From Aquabacterium sp. (GTDB taxonomy: Bacteria > Pseudomonadota > Gammaproteobacteria > Burkholderiales > Burkholderiaceae_C), in the NCBI RefSeq assembly GCF_016234775.1, contig NZ_JACRAH010000026.1, positions 1 through 64,000 of the forward strand: a DNA stretch of 64,000 nucleotides, in the 5' to 3' direction. The position numbers and the translations under genes are program-made. Shown here piece after piece: positions 31,738 through 58,633 of the stretch (position 1 is its first letter; the number at the start of each line of letters is the position of its first letter). Below the pieces are notes generated by a model. It searched no databases. It worked only from the letters and a program-made list of their open reading frames with translations, and had not been told where the DNA came from.

Positions 31738-32119
31738 CTACCCCCACGCCTCACCAATCGTCTCCGCCTGTTCCAGCACCAACTCCACCGCCGCATCAGC
31801 CAAGTCAGGCGGGTACTTGTACTTGCGCAAAATCCGCTTGACCATCAACCGTAGCTTGGCTCGCACATTCTCGCGCTGCGCCCAGTCCACACTGATGTTC
31901 TGGCGCAGGCTGGTCGTCAGCTCGTGGGCGATCTTCTTCAACGTCTCGTCGCTCAGCTCCCGCACTGCCGATTCATTGGTGATCAAAGCGTCGTAGAACT
32001 TCACCTCGTCATCGCTCAGGGGCAGGGCCATCGAGGGCGATGTCGTAGCCACTCATGTGGGTGTAGCCGACTTCGATGAGCCAACTCAGTGCTTCCTGTT
32101 CGAGTTGATCCTCTGTCAT
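31738..32119 (-). pseudogene. hsdR: Type I restriction endonuclease subunit HsdR, collapsed remnant (start joined to end)
   Basis: Two pieces of HsdR are joined out of frame. From the ATG at 32119 the first 36 codons read MTEDQLEQEALSWLIEVGYT and on to DIALDGPAPER, the typical HsdR N-terminus, and stop at 32009-32011. In the next frame, from about 32020 to the stop at 31738, the extreme C-terminus (DUF3387-type) appears: LSDDEVKFYDAL, ISVDWAQRENVRAKLRLMVK and RILRKYKYPPDLADAAVELV. The whole nuclease and helicase core of roughly 850 residues is missing. The joint falls around 32010-32022, where the sequence CTGAGCGA can be read by both parts. No functional product is expected. Confidence 0.8.
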
Positions 32120-32180
32120 ACGGCTGCCAGGTGGTTCAATTTTTTGCTTGCTTGACGTGCGAGTTGGGCTAAACTGTAGT

Positions 32181-33092
32181 TCAAGTGGATTGGGGGTTCC
32201 TGGTCGGCGCTACAGCCTCGGTGGGTTCATCGGGGCTTTTCGCTTTCTGGAACGGATAAACCATCAAACCCACGTTTTCGTACCCGCTGCCCACGCGGGC
32301 ACGGCCTCCGTCGCAGAAGAACTTTTGCTTCAACAGCTCAAAAGCCTGGTTGGCCTGAGCTGGTCGGATGTAGTTCAACCCCACGGGCCTGGCCACCAAA
32401 TCGGCCAATTGCAAACCGGTCAGGTTGGTCTTCTTATCTGCAAACACGATGTCGAATGGCAAGATGCGGTTGCCTGGATTGTCGCCATCGCATATACGCC
32501 GAAACTCCAACTCCAGTTCAGCGTCTTCCTTCTTGCCCCGGCATTCCACCAGCACATGTGTCTTGACCTGGTCCTGACCTTTCTCAGCCAGGAACTCGCG
32601 CAACGCCTCCAGGCATATGCCCAAGGCGATGTGATACGGGTTGGAGTCGGCATTGCCGCTTTTGCTCACGCGGGCCTTGTCCACCACACAGGAGATCAAG
32701 ATGAAGTTGCTGGCATCCATGATGGATGACAGGCGCTCCATGAAATCGTCTCTTGTCGGGCGGTAGCTCAAAAAGGCGAAATCGCCCTTCTGTTTGCGGA
32801 TCTCGTTTTCGTGCAACACCACGCTGTCGTGGCCAAAGTAGTTGAACTTCAGCTTCTCGACCGCAGGGATGATCTTCTCGGCGTAGTGACGTTTGTGAAA
32901 GATGCACAGCGCCAGAACAAATACCGGGTAGTCCTTGTCGATGCTGGCCAGTGAATGGTCCCCGCTTTCGTCCACGTAAACCACGTAGTCGCTGAATCGG
33001 CGGTCAGCCTCGGCAGGCGGCGCCACCTCCACAGGAATGGCTTCTGCAGATTCAAAGAGCGCGTACTGCGTGCCTTGACCGACGGAACTCAT
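32181..33092 (-). CDS. DUF3800-domain protein within a collapsed type I restriction locus
   Basis: A 303-residue protein with DUF3800 hallmarks: YVVYVDESGDHSLA near residue 40 (first acidic residues), HVLVECRGKKEDAELELEFR, and LTGLQLADLVARPVG near residue 245. The family has an RNase H-like fold with conserved acidic residues and is often found near mobile or defence genes; its role is not settled. The gene is complete. Its ATG overlaps the stop codon of the hsdM fragment, showing that it once belonged to the same operon as the restriction genes. Confidence 0.78.
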   Translation of the reverse strand: MSSVGQGTQYALFESAEAIPVEVAPPAEADRRFSDYVVYVDESGDHSLASIDKDYPVFVLALCIFHKRHYAEKIIPAVEKLKFNYFGHDSVVLHENEIRKQKGDFAFLSYRPTRDDFMERLSSIMDASNFILISCVVDKARVSKSGNADSNPYHIALGICLEALREFLAEKGQDQVKTHVLVECRGKKEDAELELEFRRICDGDNPGNRILPFDIVFADKKTNLTGLQLADLVARPVGLNYIRPAQANQAFELLKQKFFCDGGRARVGSGYENVGLMVYPFQKAKSPDEPTEAVAPTRNPQST

Positions 33093-33202
33093 GTCAGTTC
33101 AACTCCTTGACCAAGGGGCGGAACACCTCCGACATCCGCAAGGCTGTTGGCGCGCAGCTTGTCGGCGGTGGCCCAAAGAGTCTTTTTGATGTCGTCGAGC
33201 AT
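33089..33202 (-). pseudogene. hsdM: Type I methyltransferase subunit HsdM, N-terminal remnant
   Basis: A 37-codon frame whose first 19 residues, MLDDIKKTLWATADKLRAN, are the standard start of HsdM proteins (usually followed by MDAAEYKHLVLGLIFLKYIS). The similarity then ends and 18 unrelated residues (SLADVGGVPPLGQGVELT) lead to the stop. These could be a fragment of a later gene of the operon. The stop codon overlaps the DUF3800 start codon. The methyltransferase core and the specificity gene hsdS are absent. Confidence 0.75.
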
Positions 33203-33543
33203 GGGTCCCGGAGCGGTCTTCTTTGTGGAATGCCTGAGCGGCAACACAGCCGCCGCAAACCTTGATCTTAATTTGGGGCCAGGGGCGAAGACGGCTGGGA
33301 GAGCGCTGAATATGAAAAAACCGCCCGGAGGCGGTTTGAATCGCATTGGCCAACGAGAACATGTCTGGCCGGCAAACGTAGGCTGACATCCTGTTACCCG
33401 GAATTTAGTGCACATGATCCGCCTTCAAAGGCCGCGCGTTCATGAGGCACATCCAGCAGCGCCATCTGCGACGAGGGCGCCGCTGGATTCATGTCGCGTC
33501 GGCAGTTCGGAGTACATATGCAATCAAGTGCACCCAGACACGA
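33203..33543. other. Intergenic region upstream of the hsdM remnant
   Basis: A 341-base stretch without a convincing gene. It contains one strong minus-strand terminator (33312-33337). Base composition is more AT-rich than the flanking core genes. A frame running through it on the minus strand is only an upstream extension of the hsdM remnant. Confidence 0.5.
33312..33337 (-). terminator. Rho-independent terminator, minus strand
   Basis: On the minus strand the sequence reads AAACCGCC-TCCG-GGCGGTTT followed by TTT, a perfect 8-bp stem with a 4-base loop and a run of six T including the stem end. It should end transcripts coming from the PPKPK repeat gene to the right and insulate the restriction remnants to the left. 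Confidence 0.88.
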
Positions 33544-33663
33544 TCAGTGCCATCCTTGGTACTGAATGTTGGATCTGGGCTTGAGCGGAACGGGAATGGT
33601 GCCCGATGGAAATTCGTCTATGCCTGTTTCACCCTCGTCACGAACCTTTGGCTTGGGTGGCAT
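33544..33663 (-). CDS. Micro-ORF or detached fourth repeat of the PPKPK protein
   Basis: A 39-codon frame starting MPPKPKVRDEGETGIDEFPS and continuing GTIPVPLKPRS before its stop. It is a further copy of the repeat unit found in the gene just upstream, but in the next reading frame. A 55-base segment (33664-33718) stands where about 30 bases of repeat would be expected. An AAGGAG sequence (minus strand, 33674-33669) lies 5 bases before the ATG, so re-initiation is possible; otherwise it is the lost C-terminus of the upstream gene after an indel. Confidence 0.45.
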   Translation of the reverse strand: MPPKPKVRDEGETGIDEFPSGTIPVPLKPRSNIQYQGWH

Positions 33664-34042
33664 TCATGCTCCTTGTCGACATGCTATGCCTCACACACAA
33701 AATTTCTGACAGGCTCTCAAACCCAAATTCACCACCATCACGCGCTTTTGGCTTTGGGGGGACAACAGGTGTACCAGTTGGGTACTCGTCAACACCTGTT
33801 TCACCGTCTTCACGTGCTTTGGGCTTGGGCGGGATGATGGGCGCACCAGACGGATACTCATCAAACCCAAATTCGCCACCATCGCGCGCTTTTGGCTTTG
33901 GGGGGACAACAGGTGTACCAGATGGGTACTCGTCAACACCCGTTGTGGCCGGATTGCTTTCATAAGCCCAACTCGTTGCCGCCAACATTGCGCAAAAAGT
34001 TGATACCAACATTTTGCGGATACACAACCCATGCTTGTACAT
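33638..34042 (-). CDS. Small exported protein with three 24-residue PPKPK repeats
   Basis: A 134-residue product. A signal peptide (MLVSTFCAMLAATSWA) is followed by three tandem units of 24 residues (residues 37-108), each of the form DEYPSGTPVVPPKPKARDGG ending EFGF or ETGV. The tail ESLSEILCVRHSMSTRS... looks frameshifted, because another repeat continues downstream in the next frame. AAGGAGG lies 4 bases before the ATG and supports this start. I do not recognise the family. The paralogous protein next door shares the core motif, and a Ser/Thr kinase and ECF sigma gene lie just upstream on the same strand. It may be a secreted peptide precursor or envelope-associated ligand; that is inference. 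Confidence 0.6.
   Translation of the reverse strand: MYKHGLCIRKMLVSTFCAMLAATSWAYESNPATTGVDEYPSGTPVVPPKPKARDGGEFGFDEYPSGAPIIPPKPKAREDGETGVDEYPTGTPVVPPKPKARDGGEFGFESLSEILCVRHSMSTRSMNATQAKGS
33719..33934 (-). repeat. Three tandem 72-bp coding repeats
   Basis: Three head-to-tail 72-base units, each coding 24 residues (D-E-Y-P-S/T-G-T/A-P-V/I-V/I-PPKPK-A-R ...). Units 1 and 3 are nearly identical in DNA, while unit 2 differs more, giving an A-B-A pattern. The repeats are within one reading frame and are not a CRISPR array. Confidence 0.9.
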
Positions 34043-34046
34043 AGAA

Positions 34047-34084
34047 CCTCCTTGCTGTAGTAGAGCTTACATACTGCAAGGAGG
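34047..34084 (-). promoter_or_regulatory. Leader hairpin that sequesters the ribosome binding site of the PPKPK repeat gene
   Basis: On the mRNA strand CCTCCTTGC (5' arm) pairs perfectly with GCAAGGAGG (3' arm). Inside, a further GTA/TAC pairing follows one A-A mismatch, leaving a loop of about 12 bases. The 3' arm is the Shine-Dalgarno sequence of the gene that begins 4 bases later at 34042. Folding should therefore block translation unless it is melted or refolded. It could act as a thermosensor or a protein/ligand-controlled switch; no known riboswitch class is recognised. Confidence 0.6.
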
Positions 34085-34100
34085 CTCAATACATGGGAAT

Positions 34101-34134
34101 CCCCACAAAGTGGGGCAAGAGGGCATCATCCCTC
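34101..34134. other. Pair of short hairpins between the two PPKPK genes
   Basis: CCCCAC-AAA-GTGGGG (34101-34115) and GAGGG-CATCAT-CCCTC (34119-34134) lie just downstream of the second PPKPK gene and upstream of the first. No T-run follows on either strand, so they are not standard terminators; they may slow RNA polymerase or protect mRNA ends. Confidence 0.45.
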
Positions 34135-34141
34135 ATGTGCA

Positions 34142-34543
34142 TCAAGGCTGCGCGGCTTTGGCCTTGATGGCGCCGGCAGCTTCAAGGCCTTCCTTTTTGG
34201 GCTTAGGAGGAATTGGCAAGGTGCCCGTTGGGTATTGATTGCCGCCACCTTGACCGCTCAACTGAACAGCCGCACCTTCTTTCTTAGGCTTGGGCGGAAT
34301 AGGCAGCGTGCCAGTGGGGTATTCCTTATCGCCCTTTGTGGTCAACCCACCAGCGGAGACAGGCTCGATTCGCTTGATCGCACCGGTTGCAGGCGCCACT
34401 TTCGTTGCCACGCCAGTAGAGGCCGCTTGCGCAATAGGCGCCACATCCGTGGCGGCTTGCACGGTACCGAAACCCGCCGCAAGCGCGAAGAATGTGATGG
34501 CCGAACCGATATAGCGCGATTTCAGCGAAACAAGATTGATCAT
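34142..34543 (-). CDS. Small exported protein with two YPTGTLPIPPKPKKEG motifs
   Basis: A 133-residue product. A signal sequence (YIGSAITFFALAAGFGTVQAA) is followed by an Ala/Thr/Val-rich segment and two copies of YPTGTLPIPPKPKKEG about 30 residues apart, then an Ala/Lys-rich end. The start at 34543 is supported by GGAG 7 bases upstream. It is a paralogue, by core motif, of the neighbouring repeat protein. It lies 96 bases downstream of the Ser/Thr kinase gene on the same strand, so coexpression with the kinase or sigma operon is plausible. I recognise no known family. Confidence 0.65.
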   Translation of the reverse strand: MINLVSLKSRYIGSAITFFALAAGFGTVQAATDVAPIAQAASTGVATKVAPATGAIKRIEPVSAGGLTTKGDKEYPTGTLPIPPKPKKEGAAVQLSGQGGGNQYPTGTLPIPPKPKKEGLEAAGAIKAKAAQP

Positions 34544-34639
34544 TGCAATGCTCCAGTTTATGCAGGACGTCAAGAAAAATACTTCTGTAACCCAGAGAAC
34601 GCTAAAACACCACCAGCACCGACATGGCGTTGCAAGTTT

Positions 34640-37600
34640 TTACATGCCAGTTGCCACCGCAGTGGCCAACAGTTTTCGGAGCTCGTCCAGCGGCTCCTTG
34701 AAATGATAGGCCACCACTGACTGTTCTCGAAATGCCTTACCCGCCAGATTGGCCTGCTTGAGCGCCCCAGCATGATCGCCGATGGCGAACAAACATAAGC
34801 CATAACGCGCACGCGTAGCAGCCAAGTACGGATTACCAATGTACCCGTCCGACAATGTCTTGATTGCACGCTCGAAGTATGGTCGCGCTTCGAGGGGCAC
34901 TTTCTGGCCCATTTTCAATCGCGCCATCTGATCGCTGGCACTAAAGATGGCAAGGCGAAACTGGTCGTTTCTGGGCGTGCGGTCCACCGCCTCATATCTG
35001 GCGATCACCGTTGTCGCGGCTTGGTTAAAACGCCCCATTGCCATCAACAGAGCCGTCCGCCCCGTTGACATCTGGGCTGGGGACGCAGCAAGCTCCGCGT
35101 TCTTATCCACGGTCGGAGAGCCCAGCCACTTTGTGGCTTGGGTCAGATTGCCTTCGGCCAGGTAACTGGCACCCACGGCTTCGTCTATTGCCAGCACGTA
35201 AGGATGCTGCTCTCCCAGCCGCTTGGTCAACCTTACCCGTGCCTCCAGCAGTGTTGCCCTGGCCTCGGTGGGGCGACCGATGTCGTCCAGATACCAGGCC
35301 ATCACGGTTTCAATGCGTCCGTCAATGGGGACAGCATTGCCCAACATCGATTGCAGGCGCAGAGCCTCAGTGAGGTGCTGACCGACTTCGCCCAAACGTC
35401 CATCGAACAAGGCCAGTTCGCCCAGAGCCAGGTGGGCCTGGAAGACAGTCCGTAGGTCGACCGAACCTAAATTGGTCAGGATAACCTTGCTCGCATGGGC
35501 CACCAAGTCCCGCCCCCCACCTGACAAGCCAATCGACGCACTCAAACGTCCCAACTGCAACTCGATCGCCGCGCTGCTGACATGATCAGCACCCAGCACT
35601 GTCGCCATGGTACGGTGTGCATCTTGCAATTCTTGTAGAGCCTGCGAGAAGCGCCCCACCTGGGCAAGACTCATAGCCAGTTGGTAGCGCTCTTGCGCAA
35701 GCCTCGCTGAATGCGTGCCCCACAAGCGAGCACGAATCTCCATGGATTCCTCGTACTTCGCAAATGAGGCCTTGTTGTCATTCTGAAGACTCAGCAGATC
35801 ACCCATCGCGACCAGAGCCTCTGCGTGCTGCGACGTGTTAACGGCATAGGTGCCTAGTTGTTGCAATGCCGGAGCAATCAGCTCTTGTGCACCTCGAATA
35901 TCTCTGGCTTTGAGCAAGAGCTGCGCTTTGGCCACTTGTATGCCGTAACACAACGTCACAGGCCGCATCTGGTTGGCAGCACACAAGTTGTAGCCGCGAT
36001 TCAGACTACCTCCGGCTGCAGCCGTGTCACCACGTGCGTCCTGACTGTCGGCCAGATCGCGCCAGGCCTGCACTCGCTCACCAACGTCCGCGTTCATGGC
36101 GGTCAGTTGTTCTGCGCGTTGCAGACGCAAGGCAATCGCCTCATCCGTGATCGCCAGGTTGTGCAGCAGGCCTCCCACCACGCCTTGCAGCTCAACCCGC
36201 ACCTGTGGCTGGTCTTTCAGCTGCGTGCCAAGGGCACGGGCGCTGTTGACCAGCAACTGCTCCACCGTCTGCTGGCGCTTGCGCAAGGCGTCGGGCTGTT
36301 CCACGTCGCCGTTCTCGAACAGGCCCACCAGGAAGTCCTTGATGGCATTGGCTTTGGCTGCCTCCTGCCGGGCCTCCTGGGCCTGCCACAGGGCCACGCC
36401 CAGACCCACGCTGAGTGCGGCCATCACGGCGCCCACTGCGCTCAAGGCCCAGGCATGGCGCTGTACGTATTTGCGCGTGCGGTACCAGCGGCTGTCAGGC
36501 TGGGCGGCAATCGGCTCTTTCGCCAGATGGTGCTGGATGTCCTGCGCGAAGGCTTCGGCCGTGGCGTAGCGGCGTACCGTCTGCTTCTGCAAGGCGGTGA
36601 GCACGATCACATCCAGGTCCCCCTTGAGCAGCTGGTGCAGGCGCCGTGGGCTGGTGTGGAAGTGCGTGGCGAGATCGCTGAGCGTGACGGCCGTCGGGTG
36701 GTGCGTCTGCACGTCGGCATCCAGCCAGACCTGGCTGGGGCGGCGCGGGTCGGTGGCGAGGATGGCTTCTTCCAGCGCACCGCGTGTGCCGCGTGGCAGG
36801 CGGTAAGGGCGCTGGCCCGTGAGCAGCTCGAACAGGATCACGCCCAGGGCGTACACATCGCTGGCGGTGGTCAGCGGTTTGCCGGCGATCTGTTCGGGCG
36901 CGGCGTAATCAGGGGTGAGCACATGGCCGTTGTGCTGGGTCAGTTCGGTGGAGACGGCGACTGCGCCGGTTTCGCTGTCGCGTATCAGCTTGGCGATGCC
37001 GAAGTCCAGCAGCTTGACCTCGCCTTGCTCGTTGACCAGGATGTTGCTGGGCTTGAGATCGCGGTGCAGCACAAGCTTGGTGTGCGCGTACTGCACGGCG
37101 CTGAGCACCTGCAGGAACAGGTTCAGGCGCTCACGGATGTTGAGCTGGTGCGCATCGCAATAGGCGGGCAGGGATTGGCCCTCGATGTACTCCAGCACCA
37201 TGAAGGGCAGGCCTTGCGGGGCGGTGCCCACGTCGTACAGGCGGGCGATGTGGCGGTGTTCGAGGCTGGCCAGGATGTCGCGTTCGCGGCGCAGGCGTTC
37301 GGCCAGCAGGGCCTGGCCCGGGCCGGCATGCGGCATCTTCAAGGCCACCTGGCGGCGGATCTGGCCATCATCACGCTCGGCCAGCCAGACCACGCTCATG
37401 CCGCCCTGGCCCAAGGGGCGGATCAGGCGATAGGGCCCGAGCATGTCGCCCGCAAACAAGCCGGACTGGCTGCTGTGGGCACCTTGGCCTCCACCATGCT
37501 CGGCATCATCCGATGCTGATGCAGCGGGTACCGGCTCCAGCTTGGGCAAGGCCGCCATGAATGCGCCACCATCGAGCTCCCGCCGGTCGGCCAGCAACTG

Positions 37601-37732
37601 GCGCAATGCGGCAGCGGTGTCCTCGTCCAGGTTCTGGCGCTGCAGCCAGGCCTCGCGCTGATCGGCGGGCTGCGCCAGCGCCTCGTCCAGCAATGGCATG
37701 AGGCGGGGCCACAGGGCCATGGGGATCTTCAT
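34640..37732 (-). CDS. Membrane Ser/Thr protein kinase with TPR-like C-terminal sensor
   Basis: A 1030-residue Hanks-type kinase. Kinase motifs span ~95-380: [12 protein letters not shown] (glycine loop), VALKMPH (Lys), HRDLKPSN (catalytic Asp225), DFGIAKL and APEQIAG, then [13 protein letters not shown]. One transmembrane helix at ~425-447 ([22 protein letters not shown]) is followed by ~580 residues of helical TPR-like repeats, probably periplasmic. Such kinases occur beside ECF sigma factors of the TIGR02999 group, as here. The start at 37732 ([14 protein letters not shown]) is preferred over an upstream ATG. The C-terminal half is visibly less GC-rich than the kinase half, hinting at domain replacement. 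Confidence 0.9.
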
Positions 37733-37757
37733 GGCCACGACAATGTGAGTGCAAAAG

Positions 37758-37918
37758 GAGAGGCTGAGAGCCTTTCCACGTGTCCGAGCAGACCGCTCTG
37801 GCAGCGCCAATCAAGGCGCAAAGCACAGCCGTAGCTCGGGCTACGGAGAGCATTTGCAACGCTGAGTGGGGCCGCCAGAACGGGATGAGCGGGCATGGGG
37901 AAGGGCTCTCAGCCTCTC
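37758..37918. repeat. Long-range inverted repeat between ECF sigma and kinase genes
   Basis: GAGAGGCTGAGAGCC at 37758-37772 is the exact reverse complement of GGCTCTCAGCCTCTC at 37904-37918, extendable to about 20 bp with one mismatch. The right arm overlaps the stop codon of the sigma gene; the left lies 26 bases before the kinase start. A small internal hairpin, CCGTAG-CTCGGG-CTACGG, is in the loop. The whole leader could fold and modulate kinase expression. Confidence 0.7.
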
Positions 37919-38480
37919 AGGCCTTGAGGGCGGCGAACAGGAAGCTGCGGGCACGCTCCCAATCACGCTCGACGGTGCGGGTGCTGACAGCCAGCACTTC
38001 GGCGATCTCGGCGTTGTCCAGGCCGATGAAGTAGCGCATCTCCACCACCTTGACCAGGCGGGGGTCGATGGCGCCCAGGGCCTCCAGCGCTTCGTGGATG
38101 TGCAGCACCTCGTCTTCGCCGCTGGGCAGGCCCGAGGCCACGGCGGTGTCCAGGGTCACGAACGCCATGTCGCCGCCACGGCGCTGCGCCTGTTGTTCGC
38201 GCGCCAGGTCCACCACCACCGAGCGCATCACCTTGGCCGCATACGAGAGGAAATGCGAACGGTCGTTGAGCGAGAGCTCTTCCAGCTTGAGCAGGCGCAG
38301 GTAGCACTCGTGCACCAGGGAGGTGGTGTCGAGCATCACGCGTTCGTCGGTCTTGCGCATGCGGGCCGAGGCGATGCGGCGCAGCTCGGGGTAGAGCAGA
38401 TCGAACAGACGGTTGAGCGCATCGGCCTGGCCTTCCTGCGCAGCCGCCAGCAACAGTGTGACTTCTCCAACCTTGCCCAT
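37917..38480 (-). CDS. ECF sigma factor (TIGR02999-type) paired with Ser/Thr kinase
   Basis: A 187-residue extracytoplasmic-function sigma factor. Region 2 shows LLYPELRRIASARMR, then SHFLSYAAKVMRSVVVDLAR; region 4 shows IDPRLVKVVEMRYFIGLDNA and AEVLAVSTRTVERDWERARS. Members of this group are encoded with Hanks-type kinases rather than anti-sigma factors, and phosphorylation is thought to control their activity. The start at 38480 (MGKVGEVTLLL) fits the family. The kinase gene starts about 185 bases downstream on the same strand, after a structured leader. It may drive the downstream PPKPK genes. Confidence 0.87.
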   Translation of the reverse strand: MGKVGEVTLLLAAAQEGQADALNRLFDLLYPELRRIASARMRKTDERVMLDTTSLVHECYLRLLKLEELSLNDRSHFLSYAAKVMRSVVVDLAREQQAQRRGGDMAFVTLDTAVASGLPSGEDEVLHIHEALEALGAIDPRLVKVVEMRYFIGLDNAEIAEVLAVSTRTVERDWERARSFLFAALKA

Positions 38481-38555
38481 GAAACTGACTCCACAAACGC
38501 CAACAGCCACCGCACCGGGTGGCGCAGTGGCATTGTAGGGAGCTTCTGCCCGCTA

Positions 38556-39212
38556 TCAGCTGGCCTTGAACTGCTGCAAGAGCCCGCCCAGCAGCACTTC
38601 GATCATCACCTCGACATGGCGATCGCTGGGCACCTCAGGGAACCAGGTGTCGTCCGGCCCCATGACCAGATGGCGTGCGGTCAAGCCATGGATGCCTTCC
38701 CAGAAGATCTGGGTCATCAGGTCGATGTCGATATCCGCCTGGCTGACCACGCCTGTTTGCGCCAGTTCAAGCCACAGGCTGCGGCTGAAGGCGTAAGGAT
38801 CTTCGGTGGGATCGCCATGCTGCACACGCGCCGATTCGTTGGGCGCATGCGGACGAGGCTGCATGAACACGAAGGCGTATTCCGCCGGATGCGTCATGCC
38901 GAAGTGGATGTAGGCGCGCGCCATGCCACGGATGCGGTCCGCCGGCGCCTGGTGCTCGTTGGCCGCGCTGCTCATCACCTTGGTGAGTTCCAGCAGATCT
39001 TCGTCCATGGCCTGCGTGATCAGCATGGCCTTGTCTTCGAACAGCGAGTACACGACGGTGGTGGAGTAACCGGCCAGCTCGGCCACCTTGCGCAGCGATA
39101 CGTCGCCCAGGCCACCCTTCCTGATCAGCTTGCGCACGATCTTGATGATGGCCTTGCGGCGTTGCTCTGCTTCGCGCAGCTTGCGTGTCTCTTTGGCGGA
39201 TGTGGTGGCCAC
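38556..39212 (-). CDS. TetR-family regulator divergent from the ceramide-type cluster
   Basis: A 218-residue regulator. The DNA-binding part is RKAIIKIVRKLIRKGGLGDV, then SLRKVAELAGYSTTVVYSLF and EDKAMLITQAMDEDLLELT. The C-terminal part (HFGMTHPAEYAFVFMQPRP ... IFWEGIHGLTARHLVMG) resembles WHG-type TetR ligand domains. The GTG at 39212 is chosen because AGGAGAG lies 7-9 bases upstream and the resulting length is normal; ATG codons at 39314 and 39341 give longer, unconserved tails. It is divergent from a six-gene run and is the natural candidate for its regulator. Confidence 0.85.
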   Translation of the reverse strand: MATTSAKETRKLREAEQRRKAIIKIVRKLIRKGGLGDVSLRKVAELAGYSTTVVYSLFEDKAMLITQAMDEDLLELTKVMSSAANEHQAPADRIRGMARAYIHFGMTHPAEYAFVFMQPRPHAPNESARVQHGDPTEDPYAFSRSLWLELAQTGVVSQADIDIDLMTQIFWEGIHGLTARHLVMGPDDTWFPEVPSDRHVEVMIEVLLGGLLQQFKAS

Positions 39213-53865: not shown

Positions 53866-55893
53866 ATGCCTCCTACCGTCACTATCAAGACACCTGTTCT
53901 GCGTAGCCAGATGGCTGTAACCGCCACGTCGCCCTGGTTTGTCAAGGACTCGGAATATCAGCCTCATGACGGCAGTTTCAAGCTTTTGATCAACGGGCAA
54001 GAAGCCTTCGGTGCCGTACACAATGCCATTGCGAACGCCCAAAAGTCTGTCTGCATCATCTGCTGGGGCTTTCAGCCCTCCATGTATTTCATTCGCGACG
54101 GCGCATCGCCCTCAATCGGAGAACTGCTGGAGCAAAAAGCAGCAAAAGGCGTTCAGGTCCGAATTCTGAGTTGGGCACTGAAGCCTGGCCTCCTCAACGT
54201 CACAGGTTTTAGTGAGTCCAACACACCTGGACGTTGGGATTCAGGTATCAAGGACATGCCGGAAACCAGCACACGGAAGCAATACAAATACGACCGCTGG
54301 TGGTACAACGAATACGACGAAGAGCAAGAATGGTCTGATGAGGTTGCAAAAGATCTTCGTGCTTTGTTTGGCAACAAGAAATCGCAGAATCTACATTTTT
54401 ACGGGCGAGGCTTTTCCGGCGCGGACAGAGTACTCATTCGTTCCAAGGGTTATGACGACACTGGGCTGTCGTGGACGACCAAAGCTGCACTGGCTTCAGC
54501 CCCTACCCATCATCAGAAAATGGTGCTCATTGACTACGAAGACAAGGATCTTGCAACCGGCTTCGTCATGGGGCACAACATGCTCGACGCCTATTGGGAC
54601 ACGTCAGAGCACAGTTCATTCCCTCGATCGTTCTTACGCACAGGCACACCTGACTCTGAACCAAACAAGCACGCCAACGGCAAAGTTCCTCGCCACGATT
54701 TTTCGAGCCAGATCACGGGGCCTCTGATTGGAGATCTTTTCAACAACTTCGCCGTTGCATGGAAAGAGGCTAAAGGGGAAAAGCTAAAGAGTGCAAACTT
54801 CGCCTCCTACCCATACCGGGAAACGGACGCACTACGGTATATCAAAGGGCAACTGCTGCGCACTCAACCTCAATACGGGAAAGAGGACATCAAGAAGTGC
54901 TACCTGCAGGCCGTCAACAATGCAACTCAATATATCCATATTGAGAACCAATATTTCCGTTGGCCACCCTTGGCAGAGAAAATCAAGGCCGCAGCACAAG
55001 GACAGGGAGCTGGAGGGCGCAAACCAGAAACCCATGGCTCCTTGTACCTATTTGTCATTACCAACTCCAAGGATGAGGGCGTAGGGCCTGGTGCTACAAA
55101 CACTTACCGCATGATGGATGCACTGGGCAGAGCTGACACAATGCCCCAAGTCGCCAGAAAACAAAATCTGGACACGCTGGAACCCCAACTGGATAGTGCG
55201 CGCAAGGAAGTTGGCCGGTTGGAGCGCGAAAAAAGTGCCCTAGATAGCGAAGCGCGTCTTTATCAGGGACTACCCAACACCCCTGACGCTCTTACCAAGC
55301 GCTACCAGTCAATCAACGTACAGCTTGAACCTGCCCGTATGAAGCTAGCGGAACTGGAAGCACAAAACGCCGCTTTAAAATCAGAATACAACACGCAAAG
55401 GAAGGCGCTGAAAAAATCTGACGAACAGCCAGAAGACAGCCGGTGGGAAGAAGATACAGGCGGGGCAACAATTCAACCTAAAAATATTCCGGGACTGAAA
55501 TGCCACGTCTGCACATTGGTTGCACCAGACACGCTCGCAGGTGAGCCTTGGGTAGAGGTATACATCCATGCGAAACTAATGTTGATTGATGATGCCTTCA
55601 TGACTCTCGGAAGTGCCAACATCAACACGCGCAGCATGCAGACCGACAGCGAACTCAATATTGCTCACCATAGACCAGAGATTACAGTTGCGACACGGAA
55701 AGCACTATGGGAGAGTCATACCCACGGGAGATGCGGAAATGAGTCAATGGGTCTAAACGGCATGTCGATCGCTTACAAAACTTGGGGGGACATCCTGACT
55801 CAAAATGCGGCGCAAAAAAACAAACGCCGCAAACCGATTGCGCAAGTGGTCGCATTCGTACGTCTTAGTGATGATCGTGCAAACAAAGACTGA
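53866..55893 (+). CDS. Phospholipase D-family T6SS effector (Tle5-like)
   Basis: A 675-residue protein with two HxKx4D phospholipase D motifs: THHQKMVLIDYEDKDLA (His216) and VYIHAKLMLIDDAFMTLGSA (His568). The phosphatidyltransferase fold is thus bipartite, and it would cleave phospholipid head groups in target membranes. Between the halves, residues ~435-520 form a charged coiled coil (LEPQLDSARKEVGRLEREKS, LAELEAQNAALKSEYNTQRK). No signal peptide is present, as expected for VgrG-delivered cargo. It lies between vgrG and a Sel1-type lipoprotein, the standard effector/immunity arrangement. Its base composition is clearly more AT-rich than the vgrG body. Confidence 0.88.
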   Translation: MPPTVTIKTPVLRSQMAVTATSPWFVKDSEYQPHDGSFKLLINGQEAFGAVHNAIANAQKSVCIICWGFQPSMYFIRDGASPSIGELLEQKAAKGVQVRILSWALKPGLLNVTGFSESNTPGRWDSGIKDMPETSTRKQYKYDRWWYNEYDEEQEWSDEVAKDLRALFGNKKSQNLHFYGRGFSGADRVLIRSKGYDDTGLSWTTKAALASAPTHHQKMVLIDYEDKDLATGFVMGHNMLDAYWDTSEHSSFPRSFLRTGTPDSEPNKHANGKVPRHDFSSQITGPLIGDLFNNFAVAWKEAKGEKLKSANFASYPYRETDALRYIKGQLLRTQPQYGKEDIKKCYLQAVNNATQYIHIENQYFRWPPLAEKIKAAAQGQGAGGRKPETHGSLYLFVITNSKDEGVGPGATNTYRMMDALGRADTMPQVARKQNLDTLEPQLDSARKEVGRLEREKSALDSEARLYQGLPNTPDALTKRYQSINVQLEPARMKLAELEAQNAALKSEYNTQRKALKKSDEQPEDSRWEEDTGGATIQPKNIPGLKCHVCTLVAPDTLAGEPWVEVYIHAKLMLIDDAFMTLGSANINTRSMQTDSELNIAHHRPEITVATRKALWESHTHGRCGNESMGLNGMSIAYKTWGDILTQNAAQKNKRRKPIAQVVAFVRLSDDRANKD

Positions 55894-55897
55894 AGCA

Positions 55898-56950
55898 ATG
55901 CGATATAGCCTGTTTGCAATCACCCTAGTCCTCGCACTTACTGGCTGCAGCGACTCAACCAACAAACGCCCCAAGGATTTTGCAGTGCCTGATCTACCTG
56001 AAATCAAGGCCAAGTTAGCCTTCACTTGCTCACACGAGTTAGACAGAATACCGGCCAGAGACCCAGAAGCCGATCAACTATATAAATACGCTCGCTGGTT
56101 GAGAAAAAGTAATTTAACAAAACGTGACCCGAGCGTGTTTCCCATCATCGAACGACTTATTCGGATTTCAACGGCTTCTGGTCATGACAAAGCCAACCTT
56201 GAACTCCGCGAATTGATCGCCAACGGAGAAGCCAAAAGCTTAACGCCCATTGCTGAGGCGATCAATCTAACAGAAGACCTCATCAACCGAGGCGTCCCAG
56301 GCGGGTACTACGACATGGGCCAGTATCTTGAAAGAGGTTATGGCGTGGTTCAGGACCACGATCTGGCCTTGAAATATTTCCGCAAGTCCGCTGATCTCGG
56401 AAGCCCTGATGGGCAGTATCTCGTGGGCAGAAAACTATTACCCGTTGATGCGGCACCTGACGTTGCCAAAGCAATGTTGCTTTGCGCCACAGAACAGGGG
56501 CATGGGACAGCTGGATTGGAACTCGGCGTCGATCTAAAAACAGACAAGCAGTACGAAAAGAGCTTGGTCGCACTTCAACTTAGCGTCAAAGCAGGACACT
56601 ATTCAGCCGCTTCCTTCTTGCAACATGGTTTCGAAGGGCCTCCAGCGAACGACGAACTCTACTACTTAGGTCAACAAAAGGACCTTGATCGAGCCCGCCG
56701 TTACGAAGCTATCGGCAAGACACTCTTCGACTACGACTACTTAAATCCAAAGGTCCCGGAGATCGATGAAATCGTTCCCCTGCCTCCTGCCAAGCTTCCA
56801 CCATGGGATGGCAAGCTCAAGTGGCTGGAAGAGCACAAAGCCAACGTGCCACCACCCCTACCCAGCGAAGCACGCATCGCTGAGATGGCCAAAGCCAAGG
56901 GTCTGGACCCAGCCACGGGCCGCCCACTCGCTTGGGGCAACACACGTTAA
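55898..56950 (+). CDS. Sel1-type lipoprotein, probable immunity protein for the PLD effector
   Basis: A 350-residue lipoprotein (signal FAITLVLALTGC with the lipidated Cys). The middle holds Sel1/TPR-like helices: GGYYDMGQYLERGYGVVQDH, LALKYFRKSADLGSPDGQYL and AKAMLLCATEQGHGTAGLEL. The C-terminus is Pro-rich. Immunity proteins of Tle5-type phospholipase D effectors are often periplasmic Sel1 proteins encoded just downstream, as here; that role is inferred from position and fold. The start at 55898 follows the effector stop by 4 bases. Composition is AT-rich like the effector gene. Confidence 0.8.
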   Translation: MRYSLFAITLVLALTGCSDSTNKRPKDFAVPDLPEIKAKLAFTCSHELDRIPARDPEADQLYKYARWLRKSNLTKRDPSVFPIIERLIRISTASGHDKANLELRELIANGEAKSLTPIAEAINLTEDLINRGVPGGYYDMGQYLERGYGVVQDHDLALKYFRKSADLGSPDGQYLVGRKLLPVDAAPDVAKAMLLCATEQGHGTAGLELGVDLKTDKQYEKSLVALQLSVKAGHYSAASFLQHGFEGPPANDELYYLGQQKDLDRARRYEAIGKTLFDYDYLNPKVPEIDEIVPLPPAKLPPWDGKLKWLEEHKANVPPPLPSEARIAEMAKAKGLDPATGRPLAWGNTR

Positions 56951-56981
56951 CGATCCAGCCCACCGAGCCACGAGAACAACA

Positions 56982-57461
56982 ATGCCAAGCAAAAACACCA
57001 TCTGCCTCTGGTTCGACGGCACCGCCGAAGAGGCCGCGCAGTTCTACGCCAGAACCTTCCCTGACAGCACCGTGGGTGCCATCCTTCGGGCCCCGGCCGA
57101 CTACCCGTCCGGCAAGCAAGGTGATGTGCTGACCGTCGAGTTCACCGTGATGGGTATTCCTTGCCTTGGCCTGAATGGTGGCCCGGCGTTCAAGCACAGC
57201 GAGGCCTTCTCTTTCCAGGTGGCCACGGACACCCAGGAAGAGACCGATCGCCTGTGGCATGCCATCATCGACAACGGCGGTCAGGCCAGTGAATGCGGGT
57301 GGTGCAAGGACAAGTGGGGGCTGTCGTGGCAGATCACGCCTCGCGTGCTCACCACCGCCATGGCCAACCCCGATCGTGCCGTGGCCAAGCGTGTCTTCGA
57401 AGCCATGATGCAGATGAGCAAGATCGACATCGCCGCGATCGAGGCCGCCCAAAAGGGTTGA
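56982..57461 (+). CDS. VOC-superfamily protein (PhnB-like)
   Basis: A 159-residue protein of the VOC/glyoxalase fold, PhnB-like branch: TICLWFDGTAEEAAQFYART, GDVLTVEFTVMGIPCLGLNG, FKHSEAFSFQVATDTQEETD, GQASECGWCKDKWGLSWQIT and AMMQMSKIDIAAIEAA. These are often mis-annotated as 3-demethylubiquinone methyltransferases; no methyltransferase motif is present. The function is unknown. The start at 56982 fits the family. High GC content resumes here after the AT-rich effector genes. Confidence 0.85.
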   Translation: MPSKNTICLWFDGTAEEAAQFYARTFPDSTVGAILRAPADYPSGKQGDVLTVEFTVMGIPCLGLNGGPAFKHSEAFSFQVATDTQEETDRLWHAIIDNGGQASECGWCKDKWGLSWQITPRVLTTAMANPDRAVAKRVFEAMMQMSKIDIAAIEAAQKG

Positions 57462-57484
57462 GACGCAAGGCCAAAGCCCTTTTG

Positions 57485-58633
57485 TCAACTCGATGGTGTG
57501 GGCACCGTACCGGGCACCACCACCCGAATCGGCATCGATTGCCTGACCACATCCCAGCCCTGGGCGTCCACGCCATCGATCACGACCAGGAAGAGGTCGT
57601 GCACGCCAGGTTGCAGGCCTCCTGTGTTGAGTGTCAGCGTGATGTGGCCGTCCCAGATGTTCCAGGATTGCAGCTCGCGCACCTTGGCGTCCTGTAATGA
57701 CACGGCGTCACGCAGCTCCACGCGTTGCCAGCCCGCGCGAGCATCATTGCCCACGATGACCCGGCTGTCGTCCGACCACAGTTCGCGCACTTCCGGCTTG
57801 GGCAGAGGGTTGTTCACGCCGTCCTCCACCTGCCCAAAGTTGCCAAAGTAGTTCTGCTCGATGAAGTGCCTCAAGCGCATAGTGGGGTCGGCATAGACCC
57901 TCTCGACTTGCTTGTTCTGATTGATGTAGGTCTTGCCGTTCACGTGCGCACGGGTCACGACCTTGCCGTCATTGGCTCCCTGCGTGCCCGTATAGACCAT
58001 CATCTCCAACAAAGCCCAGTCACTGTTGGCCTTGATGACCTGCCCACCCCAATAGACGCTTTTGTCAGTGGCTGAGCGATTCACAAAGGTCATGAGGCCA
58101 CCACCACCGTTGGGATAGTCATGCACCTTGATTTCGCAGTCACCATCGACGATGGTGTTGCGCCAGTTCACGCGCTCATGCTTCCATTGAAAGCTCTTGG
58201 TGTAGGGCTGGCCGTCCAGCAGCAGCACGCTGCGAACCCAATGGGCCTTGTAGAAGTAGCGCTGCTCCGCAATCGGAAAGCCTGGATCGAAATGGCGGGT
58301 TGCGTTGTAGTGGGTGCTGTCTTCAGGTGTGAACAGCACCTTGCCCCGTTTGGGATCGGACATCACCTTGGTGGGGTGGCCCAGCTCGTTGAAATACCAA
58401 CCGTTGCCGTTGCTGATGTTGGCGCCCGACTGGCACGCCTCGATCATGCCGGTTGAACCGCCCAGAAAGGTCTGCGTGACGTCTGATGTACCGAAGGCAC
58501 CATCGATCGTCACCGGATCGCCATGCATATAGCCAGCGCCGCCGCATCCGCCCAGCATCCAGCTCGGTGCCGTGGTGGACAAGGCCAGCCAACCCAGGGT
58601 TTGCCGACGAGAGATCTTGTTTTGCTGGTCCAT
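57485..58633 (-). CDS. Exported protein of unknown function with twin-arginine/lipoprotein-type signal
   Basis: A 382-residue protein starting KISRRQTLGWLALSTTAP, a twin-arginine-like signal, followed by a glycine-rich lipobox-like LGGCGG. The rest is beta-rich: GWYFNELGHPTKVMSDPKRG, YFYKAHWVRSVLLLDGQPYT, SFQWKHERVNWRNTI, GGGGLMTFVNRSATDKSVYW and WALLEMMVYTGTQGANDGKV. This layout suggests a jelly-roll, carbohydrate-active or adhesin-like domain, but I do not recognise a family. Two perfect inverted repeats lie in its upstream region. The gene for a 775-residue unknown protein lies upstream on the same strand. Confidence 0.55.
   Translation of the reverse strand: MDQQNKISRRQTLGWLALSTTAPSWMLGGCGGAGYMHGDPVTIDGAFGTSDVTQTFLGGSTGMIEACQSGANISNGNGWYFNELGHPTKVMSDPKRGKVLFTPEDSTHYNATRHFDPGFPIAEQRYFYKAHWVRSVLLLDGQPYTKSFQWKHERVNWRNTIVDGDCEIKVHDYPNGGGGLMTFVNRSATDKSVYWGGQVIKANSDWALLEMMVYTGTQGANDGKVVTRAHVNGKTYINQNKQVERVYADPTMRLRHFIEQNYFGNFGQVEDGVNNPLPKPEVRELWSDDSRVIVGNDARAGWQRVELRDAVSLQDAKVRELQSWNIWDGHITLTLNTGGLQPGVHDLFLVVIDGVDAQGWDVVRQSMPIRVVVPGTVPTPSS

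Follow-up and report, generated by a model that had tools for sequence, protein, structure and literature searches.

The closest described systems are PknS-EcfK of Xanthomonas citri and PknT-EcfP of Vibrio parahaemolyticus, in each of which an ECF sigma factor is encoded beside a transmembrane Hanks-type kinase. PknS possesses periplasmic TPRs, and in the available parts of the report the ectodomain is proposed to restrain the kinase and to inhibit auto-activation: full-length PknS was unphosphorylated without stimulus, versions without the periplasmic part were phosphorylated, and activation via the periplasmic region was left by the authors to future work (PMC13147305). In ECF43 members, QTTA-like motifs of region sigma2.2 carry a phosphorylated Thr, according to the accessible text of both reports (PMC8999054, PMC13147305).

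The locus described here lies in the window, i.e. the whole stretch of 64,000 nucleotides of Aquabacterium sp. (contig NZ_JACRAH010000026.1) that was analysed. It resembles both pairs in the position of the sigma factor gene beside that of a transmembrane Hanks kinase, and its kinase has a predicted TPR ectodomain like that of PknS. A Thr stands where most sigma factors have an acidic residue, the respective motifs being DTTS in the window, STTA in EcfP (PMC8999054), and QATE in EcfK with QTTA as the ECF43 consensus (PMC13147305, as far as these sources are available). The window operon differs in that it additionally contains the genes of two small, apparently exported proteins, A and B, whereas the accessible parts of the reports on PknS and PknT mention no small exported partner (PMC13147305, PMC8999054).

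Organisation of the operon

The genes are arranged on the minus strand in the order sigma factor, kinase, A and B, and the following features were assigned:

37917..38510, minus strand: ECF sigma factor (TIGR02999 / PF07638) by family matches, sigma2.2 motif DTTS at residues 61-64
34640..37810, minus strand: Hanks-type Ser/Thr kinase, kinase domain at about residues 127-340, one predicted TM helix, TPR ectodomain
34142..34543, minus strand: protein A, beginning like a signal peptide, with a low-complexity region, two copies of the motif and a conserved tail KKEGLEAAGAIKAKAAQP
34271..34336, minus strand: motif copy 1 of protein A (YPTGTLPIPPKPK), profile E 1.7e-11
34181..34249, minus strand: motif copy 2 of protein A (YPTGTLPIPPKPK), profile E 3.1e-12
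33638..34042, minus strand: protein B, beginning like a signal peptide, with three tandem 24-aa units and a C-terminus unlike that of B in a relative
33731..33946, minus strand: the three motif units of protein B, each of 24 aa and in frame (TRF and profile)
33544..33663, minus strand: stray fourth copy in another frame, past the stop of B, matching the C-terminus of the intact B from the same-genus genome G159

The N-terminal start of the kinase gene is uncertain. Its stop is separated from A by 96 nt, and A from B by 99 nt. The latter gap (34043-34141) contains a possible hairpin (CCCCACTTTGTGGGG) without a T run; G159 also has a possible hairpin between A and B (L018, 9245-9348), which is longer, of different sequence and likewise without a T run. 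Upstream of the sigma factor gene (window 38511-38560), a stretch around TACAAT (CTCCCTACAATGCCACTGCGCCA) is nearly identical in five of the six loci (window, L018, L025, L026 and L027) and looks like a conserved promoter. A promoter common to A, B and the sigma factor was considered and rejected, as none was seen upstream of A or B in a comparison by eye, for which several of the printed positions lay near, not at, the start codons. A simple scan of positions 33400-38800 gave three promoter-like sites, of which one precedes the sigma factor gene, and two terminator-like sites; the means in shuffled sequences were 1.1 and 4.0, respectively. No RNA family reached its gathering score between 31500 and 39000.

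The GC content amounts to 55.6-56.5% over positions 32001-36000, which comprise the ectodomain, A, B and a DUF3800 gene, versus 61-67% in the remaining 2-kb blocks outside the two dips; a second dip (51-57%) was observed at 54001-58000. The DUF3800 gene (32181-33092) adjoins an ORF of 104 residues (31738-32052) that matches only the C-terminal end of the HsdR-like type I restriction model PF11867 and is possibly what is left of an inserted element.

The sigma factor and the kinase

The sigma factor matched TIGR02999 with 186.8 bits (cut-off 126.15) and PF07638 with 165.5 bits (cut-off 21.1). In its sigma2.2 motif, Thr residues occur in place of acidic residues, and the first residue is still Asp. 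The gene directly downstream encodes the kinase (PF00069, 152.3 bits). Based on the family matches, the adjacency of both genes and the Thr in sigma2.2, the pair is provisionally designated as ECF43-type. A single TM helix was predicted by eye at about residues 453-476 of the kinase, which would place the kinase domain inside the cell and the TPR domain in the periplasm. The best PDB match was 9EED, i.e. PknS of X. citri, covering query residues 27-427 and thus also the region before the kinase domain, and this match strongly supports a relationship between the two kinases.

In the structural model the ectodomain is mostly a TPR superhelix, in which pLDDT mostly exceeds 85 in blocks beyond model residue 110 but lies mostly between 34 and 73 for residues 1-110. 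TPR superhelices are known to bind linear motifs, and the Foldseek hits of the model included such entries (KLC1-peptide and APPBP2-degron); these hits are generic solenoid matches, with TM scores of 0.2-0.5 by query length in most of the matches listed and large rmsd. With charges of +3 to -5 the ectodomain is roughly neutral, and a charge match with the basic protein A was not seen.

Kinase domains were 90-95% identical in 10 pairs from five orthologs (two orthologs fell out of this comparison), and ectodomains 40-71% identical in 21 pairs from seven orthologs (window 34640-36370 and L030-L036). Along the ectodomain alignment, identity decreased from 88% in columns 36-115, just behind the TM helix, to 70% in columns 116-155 and 43% in columns 156-600. 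Judged by these alignments, the outer part of the receptor evidently changes fast, whereas its base stays fixed, as does the motif of A and B, a pattern indicating a sensor that diversifies while the signalling core is conserved. The conserved membrane-proximal part also resembles that of kinases without motif proteins. A co-variation of motif variants with the ectodomain was considered and abandoned because the pattern is not a clean one: the motif variant of A differs from that of B within the same genome.

The motif and protein A

The motif common to A and B is [YFI]PxGxxx[IVL]PPKPK, present in two copies in A and in three tandem 24-residue copies in B. A profile of 24 positions detected six copies in the genome of the window, every one at this locus, five with E values of 5.4e-13 to 1.7e-11 and the stray copy with 1.8e-5. 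Seven of the 13 motif positions (P2, G4, P9, P10, K11, P12 and K13) are invariant in the 16 in-frame copies compared, which come from six genomes, and these positions use all their synonymous codons. Over all pairs of these copies, pS was 0.76 and pN 0.19, the copies within one gene not being independent of each other; purifying selection on the motif as protein is strongly supported. Beyond PPKPK, the residues differ between A and B: all eight copies of the A proteins continue with Lys and an acidic residue, so that a Lys-Lys pair is present, and the eight copies of B contain no such pair (next residues AR in five, then AK, AQ and ST).

The A proteins possess a single motif copy in four of six genomes and two copies in the remainder. 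In pairwise comparisons among four genomes, their last 31 residues differed at 12.5-15 of 23-24 synonymous sites and at 3.5-8 of 69-70 nonsynonymous sites (14.5/23.5 and 3.5/69.5, respectively, for the A proteins of the window and G159). The tail is thus under purifying selection, with strong constraint. Beyond motif and tail, A barely aligns among relatives. The AlphaFold model of A, calculated from an alignment of six rows, had a pLDDT of 52 and a pTM of 0.13, from which A is predicted to be intrinsically disordered, the same scores being expected from so shallow an alignment. After the presumed signal peptide, the net charge of A is +5 to +7.

An initial interpretation of the window, referred to here as the sequence-only reading, had described two adjacent genes for signal-peptide proteins of no named family, sharing a motif with an aromatic-Pro start and a conserved Gly-Thr. 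Its positions for the two genes, the repeats and the stray copy proved correct, and the motif is real; the Thr after Gly, though, occurs in nine of 16 copies and is not conserved, and 14 of the 16 begin with Tyr. The presence of signal peptides was assessed visually in the six A and the two B proteins, from a basic N-terminus, a hydrophobic segment and an AxA-type cleavage site; the outcome agrees with the reading, and by this inspection A and B are apparently exported by Sec. The absence of a named family was borne out as well: Pfam gave only matches below cut-off (DprA_N, E 0.089 for A; TerS_C, E 0.013 for B), neither protein matched NCBIfam or PHROGs, and A had no match in the PDB.

Protein B

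By TRF, a 72-bp array with 3.0 copies was detected at 33728-33944. In G159 the same operon occurs, and its B contains five in-frame copies and ends with ...GLDSFPTGTIPVPPKPKSTIQY. Over 105 bases this tail aligns with the stray stretch in the window (...GIDEFPSGTIPVPLKPRSNIQYQGWH; 70%, E 1.5e-10), and past the third unit window B continues with about 60 bases of other sequence up to its stop, so that the original end is out of frame. Because of this match to the tail of an intact protein, window B looks like a disrupted array. The three tandem units and the additional copy of the sequence-only reading are present, but the latter looks like a remnant of the original C-terminus of B. Units 1 and 3 of window B differ by 3 bases and unit 2 differs from either by 22-23; the near identity of the outer units suggests that the array has been copying itself. 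The spacers between the units, of which there are three in the window and five in G159, are acidic, and the net charge of B is -3/-4. B is present at two of the six motif loci and broken in the window, so that B, if not A, is dispensable.

Distribution

The motif profile matched six of 42 genomes of the genus, two of 399 in the family sample (both of the same genus, G000 and G159) and one of 398 in the phylum sample, the window's own genome. Within the samples searched the motif proteins thus appear to be restricted to Aquabacterium, and the profile search through proteobacteria proposed by the sequence-only reading showed no wider spread in these samples. Kinase orthologs (E <= 1e-100) occur in eight of the 42 genus genomes. 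All six motif genomes are among these eight and the motif is found in none of the 34 others (Fisher p = 5.3e-6, relatedness ignored). In every one of the six, the motif proteins are short, apparently exported and adjoin the genes of the ECF sigma factor and the Hanks kinase, as had been proposed; sigma factor, kinase and A follow in the same order at all six loci, two of which also have B.

There are two exceptions among the kinase genomes. In G315 the kinase runs off the contig end. In G336 a signal-peptide-like protein of 104 residues occupies the place of A and contains GQDRQFPAPNPRPPVPPRMP, by eye a loose version of GDNQYPSGTPVVPPKPKK (looser RQFPAPNPRPPVPPRMP) that the profile does not detect; the ectodomain of this genome is the most divergent of the seven compared, and a second, partial kinase match was found on another of its contigs. 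Leaving aside the kinase locus truncated in G315, six of the other seven carry A with the motif and the seventh a looser version. Neither membership in a named family nor scattered homologues without signal peptides, the two outcomes named beforehand as speaking against a new family, were observed.

Ten of 12 initially matching genomes (E 6e-4 to 0.01) were dropped as weak; the family sample, in which the profile matched G000 and G159 alone, contained at least G005 and G015 of these ten. G334, in which the motif profile had no match, was dropped as well. No match was obtained for A in plasmids, for B of G159 in phages, or for the kinase in viral contigs; the motif profile gave 50 pattern stretches in viral contigs, none of which was confirmed by tblastn, a weak check for 24 residues. 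A phage or plasmid origin was rejected on these results. In searches of one open-access library, nothing was found on the motif, on a small exported partner of such kinases, or on a protein kinase with an ECF sigma factor in Aquabacterium.

Genes behind related kinases

Behind divergent kinases of the family, the next gene varied among 38 loci (those of 42 rows besides the window and G159; G061, G275, G375 and G074 were left out). A signal-peptide-like ORF followed the kinase at 16 of the 38 loci, versus 174 of 760 random positions (p = 0.01). These 16 ORFs start 46-232 bp behind the kinase, nine of them at 80-120 bp. As this enrichment is only mild, an exported last gene was not retained as a general feature of these operons. 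Behind one related kinase (L089, G259), a signal-peptide-like protein is followed further on by a small protein resembling, by eye, members of the Spy/CpxP group. At a further locus (L114, G197), a second ECF sigma factor (VLDTTALVHE) and a second kinase ORF lie directly behind the first kinase, which by gene content represents two sigma-kinase modules in tandem.

Possible functions of A and B

The gene order, the constraint on the motif and the co-occurrence with the kinase make it, in our judgement, probable that A and B are tied to the kinase pathway; these data do not decide between an action on the kinase and an origin as products of the pathway. A constrained short motif, a disordered exported protein and a variable copy number, together with a TPR-superhelix receptor encoded alongside, lead us to prefer the former. 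A and B might be exported, intrinsically disordered partners that dock on the ectodomain of the co-encoded kinase, a direct binding that we infer and regard as plausible rather than probable. In a more elaborate form, they would be built-in ligands whose genus-specific motif docks on the conserved base of the ectodomain while the outer TPR part diversifies, and would set the state of kinase and sigma factor; in all its parts together this is unlikely to hold. YPxGxxx[IVL]PPKPK would act as a short linear motif docking on the ectodomain, perhaps on its membrane-proximal part. This site is a guess, because the model is least certain there and the part resembles that of kinases without motif proteins. 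Docking would fix the signalling state of the kinase, and a restrained state is likelier than an active one, given the proposal that the ectodomain of PknS inhibits auto-activation. If a stimulus removed or sequestered A and B, the sigma factor could be phosphorylated by the kinase on a Thr of its DTTS motif and would then switch on its regulon; the copy number (one or two in A, three or five in B) may tune avidity. The docking proposal is weakened by the lacking charge match, the generic fold matches, the uncertain model of the base and the varied genes behind related kinases. Among the three functions offered by the sequence-only reading, a kinase ligand is still the preferred one. A wall-binding repeat found no positive support here.

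Somewhat less plausible, but not far behind, is that A and B are outputs of the pathway, namely sigma-induced Pro/Lys-rich proteins of the periplasm or surface, which would shield or bind an envelope polymer such as LPS or peptidoglycan and leave the kinase untouched. The positive net charge of A would suit this function, the varied ORFs behind related kinases, at 16 of 38 loci with a signal-peptide-like one, fit exchangeable target genes well, and the ECF43 sigma factor EcfP answers polymyxin, an envelope stress, according to the accessible part of the report (PMC8999054). However, B is net negative, inspection by eye revealed no TACAAT segment ahead of A or B like the one before the sigma factor gene, and the invariant Pro and Gly exceed the needs of charge binding. 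A multi-copy precursor, cut by proteases into small secreted peptides that serve as signals or antimicrobials, appears improbable. Such precursors are known for insect proline-rich peptides, and three or five units with acidic spacers, the 3-base difference between units 1 and 3 as a sign of copying within the array, and the Lys-Lys pair in all A copies would fit; it is on account of this pair that the precursor is kept as a rival. It is not the main reading since the single-copy form of A is the commoner one; furthermore, the B copies have no Lys-Lys pair, A and B differ past PPKPK, and no exporter or protease was found among the four operon genes by family matches. A fast-evolving orphan at the operon tail, fortuitous, of low complexity and without selected function, is very improbable. 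Its occurrence in one genus among the samples searched, the low complexity outside the motif and the decay of B in the window are consistent with it, but the substitution pattern of the motif and the strongly constrained tail of A in four genomes argue against it, as does the retention of A, or of its looser version, at all seven uncut kinase loci.

If the preferred docking of A and B on the ectodomain applies, the operon encodes a candidate partner for sensing by the extracytoplasmic TPR domains of sigma-activating Hanks kinases. This candidate is small and its 13-residue motif can be made as a peptide, so that binding and signalling are directly testable. The fixed motif beside a diversifying receptor would moreover be a case of sensors that change while the signalling core stays the same.

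Comparison with known systems

In Pseudoxanthomonas suwonensis, the one Xanthomonadales relative compared, the kinase gene is followed by a long ORF that does not contain the motif. EcfK is encoded in a T6SS region, as stated in the available part of the report (PMC8999054), whereas the TssC genes found in the window's genome lie on other contigs (C34 and C35). A T6SS link was set aside as uninformative, since TssC (VipB, PF05943) matched in 40 of 42 genus genomes. TonB has a proline-lysine-rich periplasmic segment. A and B, presumed to be periplasmic, are similarly Pro/Lys-rich, but neither has a match to TonB or to another Pfam family over the cut-off, and a role as spacer would not explain the invariant Pro-x-Gly. 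CpxP is a folded helical protein. In the CpxP-CpxA system a small exported protein sets the state of a membrane sensor kinase (PMC4160245, in its accessible part), as is proposed for A and B; in contrast to that system, A is predicted to be disordered and repeats a linear motif, and the window kinase is a Hanks kinase.
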